A stretch of 25,896 nucleotides of DNA from positions 1-25,896 of the IMG/VR virus record IMGVR_UViG_3300010391_001864; one strand, written 5' to 3'. Each line of letters opens with the position of its first letter. Within the stretch, counting starts at the first letter, position 1. This stretch comes from a virus. A program made the position numbers and the translations under genes. A model generated the notes under the pieces. It saw only the letters and a program-made list of their open reading frames with translations, did not search any database and was not told the DNA's origin. Shown in pieces: positions 3,240 to 15,357 of the stretch.

Positions 3240-5201
3240 ATGAGTTCACAGGCTCCATACAAAACCCTCAAAGTTGCTTATGAAGATATTGCCCGGCTTG
3301 TTGTAAAAGATGATGAAATGGTTGAGGAAGTTCTTGATAAGAAAACTCAACTGGCAATCGTTAAACAGGTCGATGAAGAATACAACGTAGCTTATCCTTA
3401 TAATGAGGCAAAGCGCGCAGTTCAGCTTGCACGCTTACAGCTCTATAACAATCAGCGGCGCGATGCAGAGGCTGTTGGTGATCCTTTAATGTTCACAGTT
3501 TTTAATACCGTGCTTGCCGCCCTTTATGATGATCGGCTTATGGCTGTATGGGAAGGGCGGGGAGGTGAGGGGGACGAGGATGTAGAGGAAAATTTAAACG
3601 CCCTCTGCGAGTATGACTATGATGCGATGGGGAAAAGCGAATTGGATTATTATTGGGCTTGGGATACATGTTTTTTTGGCCGTGGATTGGTTTTGCAGAT
3701 GGATTTCGATCGTGATGAAGGTGTTATAGCTCCTGTTCCGGAAGTTCTTGATCCTACAACCTTCATTCGTGATCCGAGGGCTACCTCTGTGAACGGGGAT
3801 ATGAGGGGGAAGGGCGCTATGAGGTTTGGTGGTTGGGAGTCCGGAGCGACTTATTATGAACTTAAAAATGCTCCTGGTTATTTTAATGTCGGCTCATTAA
3901 AAAAAGGTAATGATCTAAAGTCTTTGATGGGCAAAGCGAAAGAAGCGCGTAACAACGCTCAAGGAACAGAGAATTTTCCGCAAAGAGAGGAAACTTTGAG
4001 TAAATTTGGGAACTATGAATTTGGGCTTTTGAACTGGTTTACCACGATCAAAGGGGAAAAATATTTGGTGACACTTGGGAACTGCAGATCTGTAGTGGTA
4101 CGTTTGATTAAACTGGATTACAATGGACGTTGGCCGGTAACGGACCGGACCTTTTATCCGATGTCGAATGACTGGGATGGAGTTTCTATTCCCGATCTTA
4201 CAGAGGACAAACAGCGTATGGGTGCTGTTCTTTTAAATTTAGGACTTATTTCGGCAAAGGCCGATGCTTTGCCGCGCTACCTGTTTGATAAAACTAGAAT
4301 TAAAAACAAGAATGATCTTAATTACCGGGCAAATAAATATATTGGGGTAGATGGTCGTGTTGATAACGCTTTGATGCCGATTCAGAAAAATAGTGTTGTT
4401 GGCTATATTGGAGCAATCATGGATATTTTGGATCAGGGCGCCCAACGTGCTAATGCTACTCCGGAAATTCAAATGGGAGTTCCGGCGGAACAGCAAAGAA
4501 CTTTAGGGGAATTGAATCTTGTATCTTCCAAGGTTGATACTCGTTATTCGATGTCAGCAAAGATATTTGGCTGGAGCGAGAAACGATTTTGGCAGCAATG
4601 GTATGCACAATATAAACTTCATTTTAAAGATAAGATTGATGAAAAGATTATCCGCATCGCGGGATCGATGGCACCTACCTGGAGGCCTTTAACCCGTGAA
4701 AATATTATTATGCCGATTGACCCGGATATTAAAATTGAGTCCCGGGTTATTTCCGAAGCTAAAAGGCAAAGAGAACAACAGGCGTTCGATTCCTTTGCAG
4801 CTGTTGCTATGGGAGAGCCTACCGCAAATAAACGTTTTATTTTGAAGAAGGCCGGAAAACTAAGAAATCTTAAGAAAGAAGAATTAGATATGATGTTTCC
4901 TCCAACTGTTGATGAATTGCAGGCCGAAGAGGAAAACAAGATGTTGAATGATGGGAAATTGCCAAAAATTGGTGTTCAGGATGATCATCTGCTTCATATT
5001 TACATCCATGGGAAAGCAAACCAGACACCAGAAACCATGGCGCACATCCGTGCTCATAAAAAGTTGATGATTACCAAACGAAACAGACCTGATCTTTTTG
5101 CCCCTCCTGCTGGTGCTGTTTCCGGGCAGCCACCAATCCCAGGTGCTCCTGCTGGACCTCAGCCTCCGCAATTACCACCACCTAGCGCACCTACCAATTG
5201 A
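3240..5201 (+). CDS. Portal protein
   Basis: 653 residues, the expected size for podovirus portal proteins. Portals form the twelve-fold ring at the capsid vertex through which DNA is packaged and ejected. Supporting features: position after terminase and before scaffold and capsid genes; a helical N-terminus with YPYNEAKRAVQLARLQLYNN; a DPTTFIRDPRATS stretch like the 'DP...DPRA' region of portal wing domains; a long C-terminal helical part with many Lys/Glu; and a Pro-rich tail (PPIPGAPAGPQPPQLPPP) in the last 35 residues that could face the capsid interior. The stop TGA overlaps the TTG start of the next gene. No catalytic motif is expected. Confidence 0.82.
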   Translation: MSSQAPYKTLKVAYEDIARLVVKDDEMVEEVLDKKTQLAIVKQVDEEYNVAYPYNEAKRAVQLARLQLYNNQRRDAEAVGDPLMFTVFNTVLAALYDDRLMAVWEGRGGEGDEDVEENLNALCEYDYDAMGKSELDYYWAWDTCFFGRGLVLQMDFDRDEGVIAPVPEVLDPTTFIRDPRATSVNGDMRGKGAMRFGGWESGATYYELKNAPGYFNVGSLKKGNDLKSLMGKAKEARNNAQGTENFPQREETLSKFGNYEFGLLNWFTTIKGEKYLVTLGNCRSVVVRLIKLDYNGRWPVTDRTFYPMSNDWDGVSIPDLTEDKQRMGAVLLNLGLISAKADALPRYLFDKTRIKNKNDLNYRANKYIGVDGRVDNALMPIQKNSVVGYIGAIMDILDQGAQRANATPEIQMGVPAEQQRTLGELNLVSSKVDTRYSMSAKIFGWSEKRFWQQWYAQYKLHFKDKIDEKIIRIAGSMAPTWRPLTRENIIMPIDPDIKIESRVISEAKRQREQQAFDSFAAVAMGEPTANKRFILKKAGKLRNLKKEELDMMFPPTVDELQAEEENKMLNDGKLPKIGVQDDHLLHIYIHGKANQTPETMAHIRAHKKLMITKRNRPDLFAPPAGAVSGQPPIPGAPAGPQPPQLPPPSAPTN

Positions 5202-5503
5202 GTAAAGATAGACAATCAATAATTGAAATTTTAAATCAGGGGAAAGCTTCGGAGTTTTGGTCTATCCTTCAACGGGATATCGATCGGCAGATAGAAGAAT
5301 TTAGGAGTCAGAACACTAGAGAAAAGCTTAAAAGCTTACCTGCGGACCAGTATAAACTGGAGAACGAAATTATGTTTGCAAAAATAGAATTTTTAGAAAG
5401 TTTGCAAGTCTTGCCGGAAAATATTATGTTAGAAATTGGTACACCCGCTATTGAAGATAAGGAATTCGATCCTTATCGGAAACCGGGGGAGTTTGAAAAA
5501 TAA
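5198..5503 (+). CDS. Small head-module protein, unknown function
   Basis: 101 residues, started by TTG within the portal stop (TTGA overlap), so expression is probably coupled to the portal. Highly helical and charged (SILQRDIDRQIEEFRSQ, AKIEFLESLQVLP), ending EFDPYRKPGEFEK. Small helical proteins at this place often serve as head-completion or scaffold helpers, but no family is recognised. Confidence 0.7.
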   Translation: MSKDRQSIIEILNQGKASEFWSILQRDIDRQIEEFRSQNTREKLKSLPADQYKLENEIMFAKIEFLESLQVLPENIMLEIGTPAIEDKEFDPYRKPGEFEK

Positions 5504-7366: not shown

Positions 7367-7933
7367 ATGGGTAGACCAAAAGGTGTAAAAAATCAGGAAG
7401 AAAATGTTGGTGAAAATCAGGTAGCTGATCAGGCCGAAGAAACGGCTAAAGAAGTTGAAAAAGTTGAGCCGAAACTCAAAGCTCCAAAGAAGAAAGAAGT
7501 TGAAAAAGTTGAGCCGAAACTCAAAGCTCCAAAGAAGAAAGAAGTTGAAGAGGAGCCTAGGCTTGAGGCACCTGAAGAAAAGATGGCTACTGAAACCGGG
7601 GATTATCTCCTGAAGTATCAGTATCGCAAGCAGACGCCATTTGGCTCTGTCGCATCTAATCCAGCACCTGGGAGTAAAGCAGAAAAAATGAAAGCCTTTT
7701 TGCTTTCTTCGCCAAAAGTCAGAATGTTTATTCCTCAAACGCCGGGAGAGGATATTAGCATTCCGCAAAGTGTTTGTTTAAATGGATACCGTTTAGATTT
7801 CCCTAAACAGACATATCTCGATGTTCCGGAACCCGTTGCCAACGTCTTGATGGAGTCCCTCAAACAAACGGAGGTTGCGATAATGCGTAACCGAATTGAT
7901 GGGGATTCAAAGAAAGAAAATGCATTACTTTAA
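7367..7933 (+). CDS. Capsid-proximal protein with tandem EVEKVEPKLKAPKKK repeats
   Basis: 188 residues. Residues 1-75 are low-complexity and charged: two perfect 15-residue repeats (EVEKVEPKLKAPKKK, residues 29-58) plus a diverged third (EVEEEPRLEAPEEK). The C-terminal 110 residues look globular (KVRMFIPQTPGEDIS, VCLNGYRLDFPKQ, VPEPVANVLMESLKQTE). Position right after the major capsid gene suggests a virion or head-completion protein whose repeated tail may be a flexible linker. No family name can be given. Confidence 0.75.
   Translation: MGRPKGVKNQEENVGENQVADQAEETAKEVEKVEPKLKAPKKKEVEKVEPKLKAPKKKEVEEEPRLEAPEEKMATETGDYLLKYQYRKQTPFGSVASNPAPGSKAEKMKAFLLSSPKVRMFIPQTPGEDISIPQSVCLNGYRLDFPKQTYLDVPEPVANVLMESLKQTEVAIMRNRIDGDSKKENALL
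7451..7540 (+). repeat. 45-bp perfect tandem repeat, two copies plus partial
   Basis: Copies at 7451-7495 and 7496-7540 are identical at the base level; a diverged third follows from 7541. Each encodes EVEKVEPKLKAPKKK in frame. Confidence 0.95.
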
Positions 7934-11104: not shown

Positions 11105-12511
11105 ATGCCAATAATTTTCGATGGTGCCTTTAAGGGCCTGGCTGACAGTAAGTGGTCGGGGTTGCCCGGTAGCTTTGCGGTAGCGGTGGGTGTTGATGGA
11201 CACTCTACACCGGGGACTATTACCGCTCAGCAGAAACTGAAGAAGGATAGTGCATCAACGGTAGACGCTTTCCCGAAAGTGGCTGTGGCGGCTTCCAATG
11301 GGTATACTTTTTGGTTTAGTTCAACAACAGGCAAGATTTGGGCTCGAAATTCAAGCGGTACGTGGTCTTTGGCATATACGACCTCGGCGGGGGCGGGGGG
11401 ATCTGGTTGTTTGGGTGCTATGGAATATAACGGTTATATTTATTGGGCTACGGAAAGTCGTTTACACCGCGTTGCGATTGCTGACGCTGACGATGCCTGG
11501 GCGAGTGTAGGCTTGAATTTCGCCACGTTCACCAAAACTGACGCAAGTTTCCATCCAATGGCAATTCAAGACCTTACCTTGTTTATCGGTGATGGAAATT
11601 TGGTTGCTGAGGTGAACAGTGCGGGTACTTTTACGGCCAATGTACTCGATTTAACGACTCCATATCGAATAAAAGCACTTATAGATTACGATATTGATCT
11701 TCTTATTGGTACGTATATCGCCGATACGGTAAACAGGGCGGAGATTTTTCGATGGGACACTGTTTCATCTTCATGGAATACTTCAGACAAGATCAATGAA
11801 GCGGGAATCAATGCTTTTATTCGAGACGATAATTATCTTTATGTGAGTGCCGGGCTTGCGGGGGGTATTTATTATTACGATGGAAGCTATTTACTCCCAT
11901 TTAAGCGGATGCCCGGGTCATTCACCACCTCAAAATACGGCTTGGTTCATCCAGGATCGGTAGCAAACTTCCGTGGCGTGCCTGTCTTTGGATTCTCGAA
12001 CGGTTCGGGTGATCCTGCACTTGAAGGAGTCTATTCCTTCGGTTCATATTCACGAGATTATCCAAAGGTTCTTGATCTTTCATGGGTCATTTCCGAGGCG
12101 GTGACTACGGGGATAGAAATTGGAGCCATTATTGTAGCCGGATTTGATCTTTTGGTGGCGTGGAAAAATGGAAGTACTTTTGGGGTTGATATCATCGATT
12201 GGTCAAACAAATATAATGGAGCCTATTTTGAAACACGGATGTTGTTTCAGACCGCCAGGGATATGGTCAAGACGGTAGCCCAAATTGAAGCTTTTTATAA
12301 TTCGTTACCGGCAAGTACAGGGATAACTTTTTCGTATTCCGTGAATGGGGCGGGTTACGTTTCAATGACGAGTATTACCGACGCTATTTTGGCCTCCATT
12401 AAAGCCAGAGTTTCTGTTACTGCTATCGGGAGTTTGCAATTTAAAGTCGCGTTTACTTGTTCGGGTAACACCGCACCAGTGTTGGAAGGATTAGCTGCTG
12501 AATTTAAGTAA
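11105..12511 (+). CDS. Tail protein with propeller-like repeats
   Basis: 468 residues, no signal peptide. Repeated short beta blades can be read: GYTFWFSSTTGKIWARNSSG, NGYIYWATESRLHRV, YIADTVNRAEIFRWD, DDNYLYVSAGLAGGIYYYDG, each with aromatic/Gly-Asp turns typical of beta-propellers. Similar proteins form the tail nozzle or hub of podoviruses. The C-terminus (APVLEGLAAEFK) is followed at once by the fibre gene. Confidence 0.65.
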   Translation: MPIIFDGAFKGLADSKWSGLPGSFAVAVGVDGHSTPGTITAQQKLKKDSASTVDAFPKVAVAASNGYTFWFSSTTGKIWARNSSGTWSLAYTTSAGAGGSGCLGAMEYNGYIYWATESRLHRVAIADADDAWASVGLNFATFTKTDASFHPMAIQDLTLFIGDGNLVAEVNSAGTFTANVLDLTTPYRIKALIDYDIDLLIGTYIADTVNRAEIFRWDTVSSSWNTSDKINEAGINAFIRDDNYLYVSAGLAGGIYYYDGSYLLPFKRMPGSFTTSKYGLVHPGSVANFRGVPVFGFSNGSGDPALEGVYSFGSYSRDYPKVLDLSWVISEAVTTGIEIGAIIVAGFDLLVAWKNGSTFGVDIIDWSNKYNGAYFETRMLFQTARDMVKTVAQIEAFYNSLPASTGITFSYSVNGAGYVSMTSITDAILASIKARVSVTAIGSLQFKVAFTCSGNTAPVLEGLAAEFK

Positions 12512-15357
12512 AACTGCCTGATATCCAATATAGCCCGCTTGATGATCTTCCTACAAAAATTGACAATAAAACACAACAGGTCACTACTTTCCCCGCACCC
12601 CAATATTCCCCGAATCTTACTGATTTCAGGGCTGCGTTAGCGACTACGGGAATCGTAGCGAGGAACGGAAGCATCGAATCACCAAATTTTGTTACTGGTG
12701 TCTCGGGCTGGCGGGTCCGGGCGACTGGTGATGTAGAATTTAATAACGGTACTTTTAGAGGTACAGTTTCGGCTGGTACGTTTATTGGAGGTTCGATTCA
12801 TATACCAGACCAAGATACAACCGCGAGTAGTTTTCACTCCGATACTTCGGGTAATTCGTGGTGGGGTTGTACCCAAGCGAATTTTACCGCTAACCATAAT
12901 AACGCGGCGGCTTATATTCTGGCCACTGGTGTAGCAAAATTTCAGACAGTATCGCTGACCAACAATGTAGTGATATCAGGGCTTCAAGCTGGTACGGAAA
13001 TTGCTATCCAGGACTGGCAATTCACGGCAATTTTTTCGGCTACAGATTATAGAGTTGTGGCTTGGACTTCGGGGACAATCACTCTATTGAATGGGGTTAC
13101 TTATTCCATTTCTTCGGGGAATACGGGGAATATGGCAACCCTTACCTATATTTATCTCGATACGAATGTTTCAACCACGGTTTTACAAATTACCACTACA
13201 GCGGCTAACGCTGTAGGAGCTGGGAAGATACTTTTGGCGGCTGCGAAAAATAATGCCGATACCACAAAGCAGGCTTATTACCAGGTATTTGGTGGATCAG
13301 GGGGTATAAACCCTATTATTACAGCCGATAATGTCGTTTCCAGTACGATCACGGCTAATGAAATTGCGGCCAATACGATTACAGGCACAAACATCAATTC
13401 GTTAAATCTTACCGGCAAAAATATTACCGTTGATACTGGAACTATCGGTGGTTTTACGATGGGCGCAACAAGCTTTTCCGCAAGTTCCGGCGGGAACACG
13501 ACCACGGTAAGTTCAGGCTCTACAGCGTTCGCGTCAGGCCCGACAGGTAGCCCCACGGTTACTATCACACAGGCGGGTATTTTGACTGTTGTAGGGGCGG
13601 TTATAAATGGTAGGCAATTCACCTCTGACCCGACTTTTGGTGATGGTTCGGATGGGACGGTAACAATAGTTTCGAACACAACTCTTACAAGGGACATGTT
13701 TTATGAAGTTTTAACCGTGAATGGTACGGCGTCAAATATAACTTATGCACCTGCGACTGGCACTTCAGGTGATGGATATGCTGGGAGAGCTGGAACTAAC
13801 ATAGTATTCGGTACTTTAAGGTCGGGTGCGGGGACAGCATCAGATAGTTCGGGGGCAACAGAAATTATACAGCTTACATCAGGTACTACAGCAGATCGCT
13901 ATAACGAAATGCGCCGTTTTATCATGGAATTTGATACCGCAAGTGTTCCTGCGGGAGCAACCATTACGGGAGCTACTTTAAGTGTTTGGGTTGATTCTGT
14001 GGTAGACAATTTTTCACAGTCTTTATCTCTTGTTCTCCATGCGAATGGAATAATTGCCAATGCTAGTTTTAATATTGCGAACTGGACAATGACCCAGCAG
14101 GCAACAGATTTGCCAATTTCAGGATTAACCGCCGGAGCCTATAACGTATTCACCCTCAATGCCACGGGAATTTCCAATATTGTAAAAGGTGGCACAACAA
14201 AATTTGGGATTGTTACATCGGCCGATCAGTCCAATACTGCACCGACGTGGGTTTCAGCCACCACAGCATCTGCGACAGTAGAAACAATCGAGGGGACACA
14301 TCCACCACAACTAATTATTAGTTGGACTGGTGGCGCACCTGTTCTAAATCCCGCTGGTTACCGTATTTTTGGGAAAACATCGATCAATCTTTTAAATGGA
14401 GCCTCTATAACAAGAAATGGGAATACGGGTTCTAATGGAACGGCGGGTGGAAATGGGAGTTCTCCTACTGGTGGTGCTGCTGGTGCTGCTGGCGCTGGCG
14501 GGGCTGCCCTGGCTGCTGGAAGCATATCAGGGGCAGTAGCAGGAACATCTGGGGCTGCTGGTGTTGTAGGCGGAGTTGGTGGTTTGGGAGCGGGCAGTGT
14601 AGGAAATAATGGAGCTGCTGCAAATAATGGAACGGGTATAACGTCTGGTTTGTGTTTTATTGGTGTGGGAAATGCTACTGGGGCAACCGCTGGCGCTGGC
14701 GGGGCTGCCACGGGGGGGCCGGGAGTAGGCGGTGGTGCTGCGGCGGGGACACCTTCGGCACAAGGTACCCAGGGAACTTTCGTTCTTGCAACGGCAGGTG
14801 TGAATTTGTTGGTAAATGCTACTTTAATGTTAGATTCCGCCGTTCCTATTCTTTATAAGACAGCATCCGGAGATTCGGGGACGGGGGGTTCTGCTAGTGG
14901 AGGGGGAGGGAATAGTGGGGGGGGAGCGAATTCCGGCGGGGGAGGTGGAAGCGGCGGGGGAGGTGGAAGTGGTTCCCCTGGTGGAATAGTTTTAGTTTCA
15001 AGTTCTTTAATTAGTGTTGATGCTACATCTTCAATCACTACCAACGGTGGAACTGGTGGAAACGGTGGAACTGGTGGAAACGGTGGAAACGGTGCAGGAG
15101 GGAATACTGGTGGCGGGGGTGGTGGGGGTGGTGGAAATTCAGGGTCAGGGGGGAATGGAGGAGTTGTTTGTTTAATTTATACAACTCTTTCAAATTCAGG
15201 AACAATCACCGCTAGCGGTGGAGCACCAGGGTCGAAAGGTACGGGGGGAACTGGCGGAAATCCATTCGGAACAGGTAAAACTGGAGTTGTTGGTTCGGAT
15301 GGGACGGTAGGTTCTACAGGGACAGCGGGAAAAGTTCTTAATTTACAACTTATATGA
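12508..15357 (+). CDS. Tail fibre / adhesin with Gly-rich C-terminal part; non-canonical start
   Basis: About 949 residues if read from codon GTA 12508 (CTG 12514 is the other choice). The first normal start codon is GTG 12970, yet the 154 codons before it encode clear fibre sequence, for example NGSIESPNFVTGVSGW, VEFNNGTFRGTVSAG and GGSIHIPDQDTTASSFH. Next come beta-rich repeats; residues about 450-608 resemble a DNRLRE-type carbohydrate-binding fold (YNEMRRFIMEFDTASVP, GATITGATLSVWV); residues about 634-885 are Gly-rich (GGGGGS and GGTGGN repeats), as in polyglycine adhesins. Likely host-surface recognition. TGA overlaps the next ATG. Confidence 0.78.
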   Translation, partial: VKLPDIQYSPLDDLPTKIDNKTQQVTTFPAPQYSPNLTDFRAALATTGIVARNGSIESPNFVTGVSGWRVRATGDVEFNNGTFRGTVSAGTFIGGSIHIPDQDTTASSFHSDTSGNSWWGCTQANFTANHNNAAAYILATGVAKFQTVSLTNNVVISGLQAGTEIAIQDWQFTAIFSATDYRVVAWTSGTITLLNGVTYSISSGNTGNMATLTYIYLDTNVSTTVLQITTTAANAVGAGKILLAAAKNNADTTKQAYYQVFGGSGGINPIITADNVVSSTITANEIAANTITGTNINSLNLTGKNITVDTGTIGGFTMGATSFSASSGGNTTTVSSGSTAFASGPTGSPTVTITQAGILTVVGAVINGRQFTSDPTFGDGSDGTVTIVSNTTLTRDMFYEVLTVNGTASNITYAPATGTSGDGYAGRAGTNIVFGTLRSGAGTASDSSGATEIIQLTSGTTADRYNEMRRFIMEFDTASVPAGATITGATLSVWVDSVVDNFSQSLSLVLHANGIIANASFNIANWTMTQQATDLPISGLTAGAYNVFTLNATGISNIVKGGTTKFGIVTSADQSNTAPTWVSATTASATVETIEGTHPPQLIISWTGGAPVLNPAGYRIFGKTSINLLNGASITRNGNTGSNGTAGGNGSSPTGGAAGAAGAGGAALAAGSISGAVAGTSGAAGVVGGVGGLGAGSVGNNGAAANNGTGITSGLCFIGVGNATGATAGAGGAATGGPGVGGGAAAGTPSAQGTQGTFVLATAGVNLLVNATLMLDSAVPILYKTASGDSGTGGSASGGGGNSGGGANSGGGGGSGGGGGSGSPGGIVLVSSSLISVDATSSITTNGGTGGNGGTGGNGGNGAGGNTGGGGGGGGGNSGSGGNGGVVCLIYTTLSNSGTITASGGAPGSKGTGGTGGNPFGTGKTGVVGSDGTVGSTGTAGKVLNLQLI
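14935..14970 (+). repeat. 18-bp tandem repeat, two copies (GGGGGS)
   Basis: Unit GGCGGGGGAGGTGGAAGC at 14935-14952 followed by a copy differing in the last base (14953-14970). It encodes GGGGGS twice within the fibre Gly-rich segment and lies inside a run of very G-rich sequence (14877-14970). Confidence 0.85.
15046..15090 (+). repeat. 18-bp tandem repeat, 2.5 copies (GGTGGN)
   Basis: Unit GGTGGAACTGGTGGAAAC at 15046-15063 and 15064-15081 is perfect, followed by half a unit (GGTGGAAAC, 15082-15090). In frame in the tail fibre, so copy changes would alter length without breaking the gene. Confidence 0.9.

Follow-up and report, generated by a model that had tools for sequence, protein, structure and literature searches.

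A candidate CTG start codon at the conserved start position of a phage tail-fibre gene

Genes and features at the locus

The window analysed here is one whole IMG/VR virus record (IMGVR_UViG_3300010391_001864) of 25,896 bases, within which we consider the 5' end of a tail-fibre gene and its junction with the gene upstream (Table 1). To judge from its sequence, the gene belongs to an uncultured tailed phage and is a tail-fibre (receptor-binding) gene of the ordinary kind. The fibre frame is open from 12508 to 15357 (949 codons), and the in-frame codon directly before it is TAA. As the preliminary description of this DNA had noted, the frame has no ATG, GTG or TTG among its first 154 codons (12508-12969), the first standard start being GTG 12970, and the region where the gene would start adjoins the stop codon of the upstream gene. 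At this junction, GTA occupies 12508-12510, the upstream gene ends with TAA at 12509-12511, and CTG lies at 12514-12516.

The probability of 154 codons without ATG, GTG or TTG arising by chance is 0.0005 if these codons occur as often as they do inside genes across the virus (4.8%), and 0.016 if they occur as in the remainder of the fibre gene, where they are less frequent (2.6%). The same absence is seen in 26 of 4381 stretches of 154 codons from the longer genes of this virus and the fibre gene. Inside the fibre gene such an absence is therefore uncommon but not extreme. The notable feature is that the gene has no standard start at its 5' end, and in this it agrees with genuine CTG-start genes, which lack one where their coding sequence begins.

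Table 1. Positions of the features of the fibre gene and its upstream junction
Feature	Position	Strand	Basis
Upstream gene of 468 residues, ending EFK-TAA; precedes the fibre gene	11105..12511	+	relatives
TAA in the fibre frame right before its opening; blocks entry by frameshifting from the upstream gene 5' of it	12505..12507	+	sequence
TAA, stop of the upstream gene	12509..12511	+	sequence; junctions of relatives
Predicted tail-fibre gene, 947 residues from the CTG; N-terminal tip-like module and glycine-rich C-terminal part	12514..15357	+	tblastn; weak Pfam match; no internal stop
CTG, putative fibre start codon; stands where relatives have ATG (one GTG)	12514..12516	+	junctions; N-terminal alignments; Pro-8 register
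Short N-terminal motif (L/M)PDIQYSPL	12514..12540	+	common to relatives with differing fibre bodies
Conserved block 5' of GTG 12970, SIESPNFVTGVSGW...SIHIPDQ...SFHSD...WWGC...AYILATGVAKFQ	12664..12969	+	homologue alignments
GTG, first standard start in the frame; within a conserved NNVVISGLQ stretch; not the homologous start	12970..12972	+	sequence; L021 alignment

The start position indicated by relatives

Codon usage was scored after training on ten other genes of the window. From 12514 to 12969 the fibre frame scores +0.17 bits per codon, and the other five frames score -0.21 to -1.09. A homologue at one related locus (L021; related loci are given L numbers) aligns to residues 2-359 of the fibre protein with 35% identity (E value 3e-42), and from about residue 52 onward the two are 50% identical. 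More relatives of the conserved block have an ATG start upstream of it. Codon usage and homologues thus both show that the stretch 5' of GTG 12970 is coding.

Relatives that carry the upstream 468-residue gene, of which 20 were found in IMG/VR, metagenome-assembled genomes (MAGs) and one GenBank phage, indicate the position of the start. Their fibre-type gene opens with ATG (in L009, with GTG); it adjoins the 468-residue gene, except that in L003, L006 and L021 one gene intervenes. The N-terminal consensus is M-x-x-[IVL]-x-x-x-P, and eleven relatives have the proline as their eighth residue (L003, L005, L006, L008, L009, L010, L013, L015, L019, L021 and, when read from its ATG, L004). In the window protein this proline is residue 8 counted from CTG 12514 and residue 10 counted from GTA 12508. 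Read from the CTG, the window protein begins (L/M)PDIQYSPLDD, to be compared with MPEIPYNPLPG (L005), MPDVEPQPQPE (L008), MPIIISQPIPE (L010), MIYVDNKPINM (L021) and (V/M)ILIEGKPLF (L009). Across twelve aligned N-termini, column one is methionine in all except the window, and in the longer alignment the ATG of L021 stands opposite CTG 12514. The proline register and the N-terminal alignment therefore make CTG 12514 the positional start of the fibre gene, placing a CTG where homologues have their start codon, as in genuine CTG-start genes.

The preliminary description had singled out this CTG as the nearest near-cognate codon, a choice that the start register of the homologues bears out. It had also proposed that GTA 12508 is what is left of a GTG lost from a GTGA stop/start overlap. 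Comparison of the homologous fibre genes upholds a start beside the upstream TAA and places it at the CTG rather than at GTA 12508, to whose position no homologue start corresponds. The GTGA idea was reasonable, since L009 has a real overlap of this kind; even so, the N-terminus of L009 aligns to CTG 12514. Loss or weak use of the fibre start might, as was also suggested, alter receptor binding.

Is the CTG real?

We consider it probable (about 0.62) that CTG 12514 is a real start in use for the fibre gene. CTG starts are already known, and are genuine but very rare; the conserved start position of the fibre gene holds either such a rare start codon or a one-off base change or error, and not a new mechanism. 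Several observations weigh against a CTG in use. No fibre relative was found with a CTG start, and there is no strong Shine-Dalgarno (SD) sequence to compensate for the CTG. Searches of viral_contigs with exact and degenerate patterns, which may omit very near records, found no near-identical contig that could confirm the CTG. Switches from AUG to CUG number 2 among 61,358 ancestral AUG starts (PMC5622118), and CTG is annotated as the start of about 0.024% of genes, according to figures cited in PMC11983097. In a reporter, as cited in the same source, CTG gave about ten-fold less expression than TTG.

This low prior makes a consensus error or a population variant a serious rival. With an error, the contig would have one wrong base, and the start at 12514 would be a standard one in the phage itself. 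Every relative has a standard start there and genuine switches to CUG are extremely rare; moreover, in two related records the reading frame is broken close to a gene start, in what look like small indels, indicating that such contigs are not all error-free or intact. One break interrupts a conserved gene of L046 close to where it starts, at an A-run (MAKTKKKKKK; about 13325-13370), and the other, in L052 (about 4990-5260), falls within the first 50 codons of a conserved gene homologous to window 7367-7933. On the other side, there is no direct sign of an error, the remaining 947-codon frame is intact, and errors at one given start codon are rare too. We regard an error as possible but doubtful.

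A real start-loss variant is improbable; on this reading the lineage would make little or no fibre, or the base would vary within the population. A single change at the start would suffice, and fibres are a common target of variation; however, no stop or frameshift interrupts the 947-codon frame, the overlap of the next gene with the fibre stop (15354) is preserved, and a CTG retains partial initiation activity, so that complete loss is not expected.

Two other readings have next to no probability. The first takes GTG 12970, the first standard start and the choice of any gene caller limited to ATG, GTG and TTG, as the functional start and the stretch before it as untranslated or vestigial; it is rejected on the coding signal and homology upstream, for the GTG sits inside a conserved run (VISGLQ), a start there would remove the block IESPNFVTGVSGW...SIHIPDQ...WWGC that matches L021 at 50% identity and is translated from an ATG in relatives, and homologues starting at the equivalent of this GTG, the result that would have spoken for it, were looked for and none was found. 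The second has a -1 frameshift at the AAG/TAA junction join the fibre to the upstream protein, given that the fibre frame, open from 12508, is the -1 frame of the upstream gene; it is rejected because the -1 frame stop at 12505-12507 leaves one codon for the slip, GAA TTT AAG TAA does not fit the pattern X XXY YYZ, neither a slippery heptamer nor fused products in relatives were found, and L003, L006 and L021 have other coding sequence between the two genes, which therefore encode separate proteins.

A possible route of initiation

CTG 12514 follows the upstream TAA by 2 nucleotides (spacing +2), and in relatives with adjoining genes the spacing is mostly -4 to +15 nucleotides. Reinitiation after a stop requires an overlap or a very short spacing on the same strand (passages of PMC10666635 and of the review PMC12548453), and the junction has such a spacing. 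Pairing with the anti-SD sequence upstream of the CTG is weak (-0.9 kcal/mol), as it is for most genes of the window. A special RNA structure at the fibre start was considered and rejected, as folding there is no better than that of shuffled sequences (z = 0.17).

Given the tight spacing and the lack of an SD sequence, we infer coupling by termination-reinitiation at CTG 12514. It would mostly be ribosomes ending the 468-residue gene that restart at the CTG, which would be read by the initiator formylmethionine (fMet) tRNA, so that the protein would begin with fMet and not with leucine; expression of the fibre would probably be lower than from an ATG. The use of a CTG start as initiator is bench-proven in the FIB rep gene (PMC11983097). 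A fuller picture, in which a phage mostly lacking SD sequences starts its fibre at a real CTG with ribosomes arriving from the upstream stop, the weak start setting a low ratio of fibre to tail, is tentative and on balance unlikely.

Few genes of the window have SD-like sequences upstream, and the virus or its host may use other means of initiation. At 5198-5201 (TTGA) the stop codon of the portal gene overlaps the probable TTG start of another gene, a further non-ATG coupled start. For the major capsid gene, the mechanically called TTG start (6324) is probably wrong; ATG 6339 (MANTTTT...) is likelier, since homology begins at about residue 6.

Three related loci (L019, L020 and L021) lie in three unrelated MAG bins, named Parcubacteria, Gammaproteobacteria and Aegiribacteria, and host assignment from these bins is therefore weak. 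As to the initiator tRNA of a possible host, no tRNA-Met is among the tRNAs listed for the Parcubacteria bin that holds L019, an assignment that shares this weakness.

The fibre protein and its upstream neighbour

In tblastn searches, residues of about 53-118 of the fibre protein match cultured-phage proteins of the J, minor tail and tail fibre types. Its score against PF09327 (Phage_Tail_Tip) is 17.9 bits, below the cut-off of 22, which leaves it outside the family as defined, and the full-length protein has no match above cut-off in PHROGs or Pfam. The C-terminal part is seen in the translation to be rich in glycine. AlphaFold modelling of the N-terminal 199 residues gives a mean predicted local distance difference test score of 55.7, with moderate confidence at residues of about 35-80 only. 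The short N-terminal motif is shared with relatives whose fibre bodies look different (for example L004, L013 and L015). By its anatomy, the motif may be a docking peptide that attaches different, exchangeable fibres to the same tail.

The product of the upstream gene is a probable tail or tip protein. It is 52-66% identical to its eight closest relatives (alignment A1), and searches of Pfam and PHROGs gave no match. In two relatives, L007 (from 5501) and L020 (from 3383), a gene that looks like a homing-type (HNH-like) endonuclease lies between the 468-residue gene and the sequence after it.

Relation to known systems and implications

A close parallel is the rep gene of the FIB replicon of F-like plasmids (PMC11983097). 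There too a CTG start was replaced in annotation by a downstream GTG, and it took other evidence to recognise the real start. The FIB rep start is bench-proven and served by a good ribosome-binding site, whereas the fibre CTG is a predicted start that lacks an SD sequence, and the fibre gene differs from FIB rep in being a structural phage gene that adjoins an upstream stop codon. Among phage genes, ORF10 of phiB124-14 likewise has a predicted CTG start; as described in part of PMC3338817, that start is an annotation choice with no homologue comparison cited, while the fibre CTG rests on homologues. The coupled gene pairs described in passages of PMC10666635 and PMC12548453 resemble the fibre junction in having a start within a few bases of a stop on the same strand, and in some of them an SD sequence is unnecessary, as it would have to be for the fibre. 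Their common spacings are -4 and -1 nucleotides, in contrast to +2 at the fibre junction, and those passages contain no CTG start in a coupled pair. A short module of the fibre, GW+x...GdvEFNNGTFRGT, has its matches among J and minor tail proteins, recalling the J-type tail-tip fibres of lambda and HK97 (PF09327); it differs from them in its score below the cut-off and in that the remaining protein is unmatched.

Gene callers limited to ATG, GTG and TTG would cut about 152 residues from the fibre protein, among them the shared N-terminal motif and the conserved module before GTG 12970, and such a truncation would mislead predictions of host range as well as structural studies. Should the CTG be real, the fibre would be a rare example of a phage structural gene with a homology-supported CTG start, and coupling rather than an SD sequence would have to carry its initiation.
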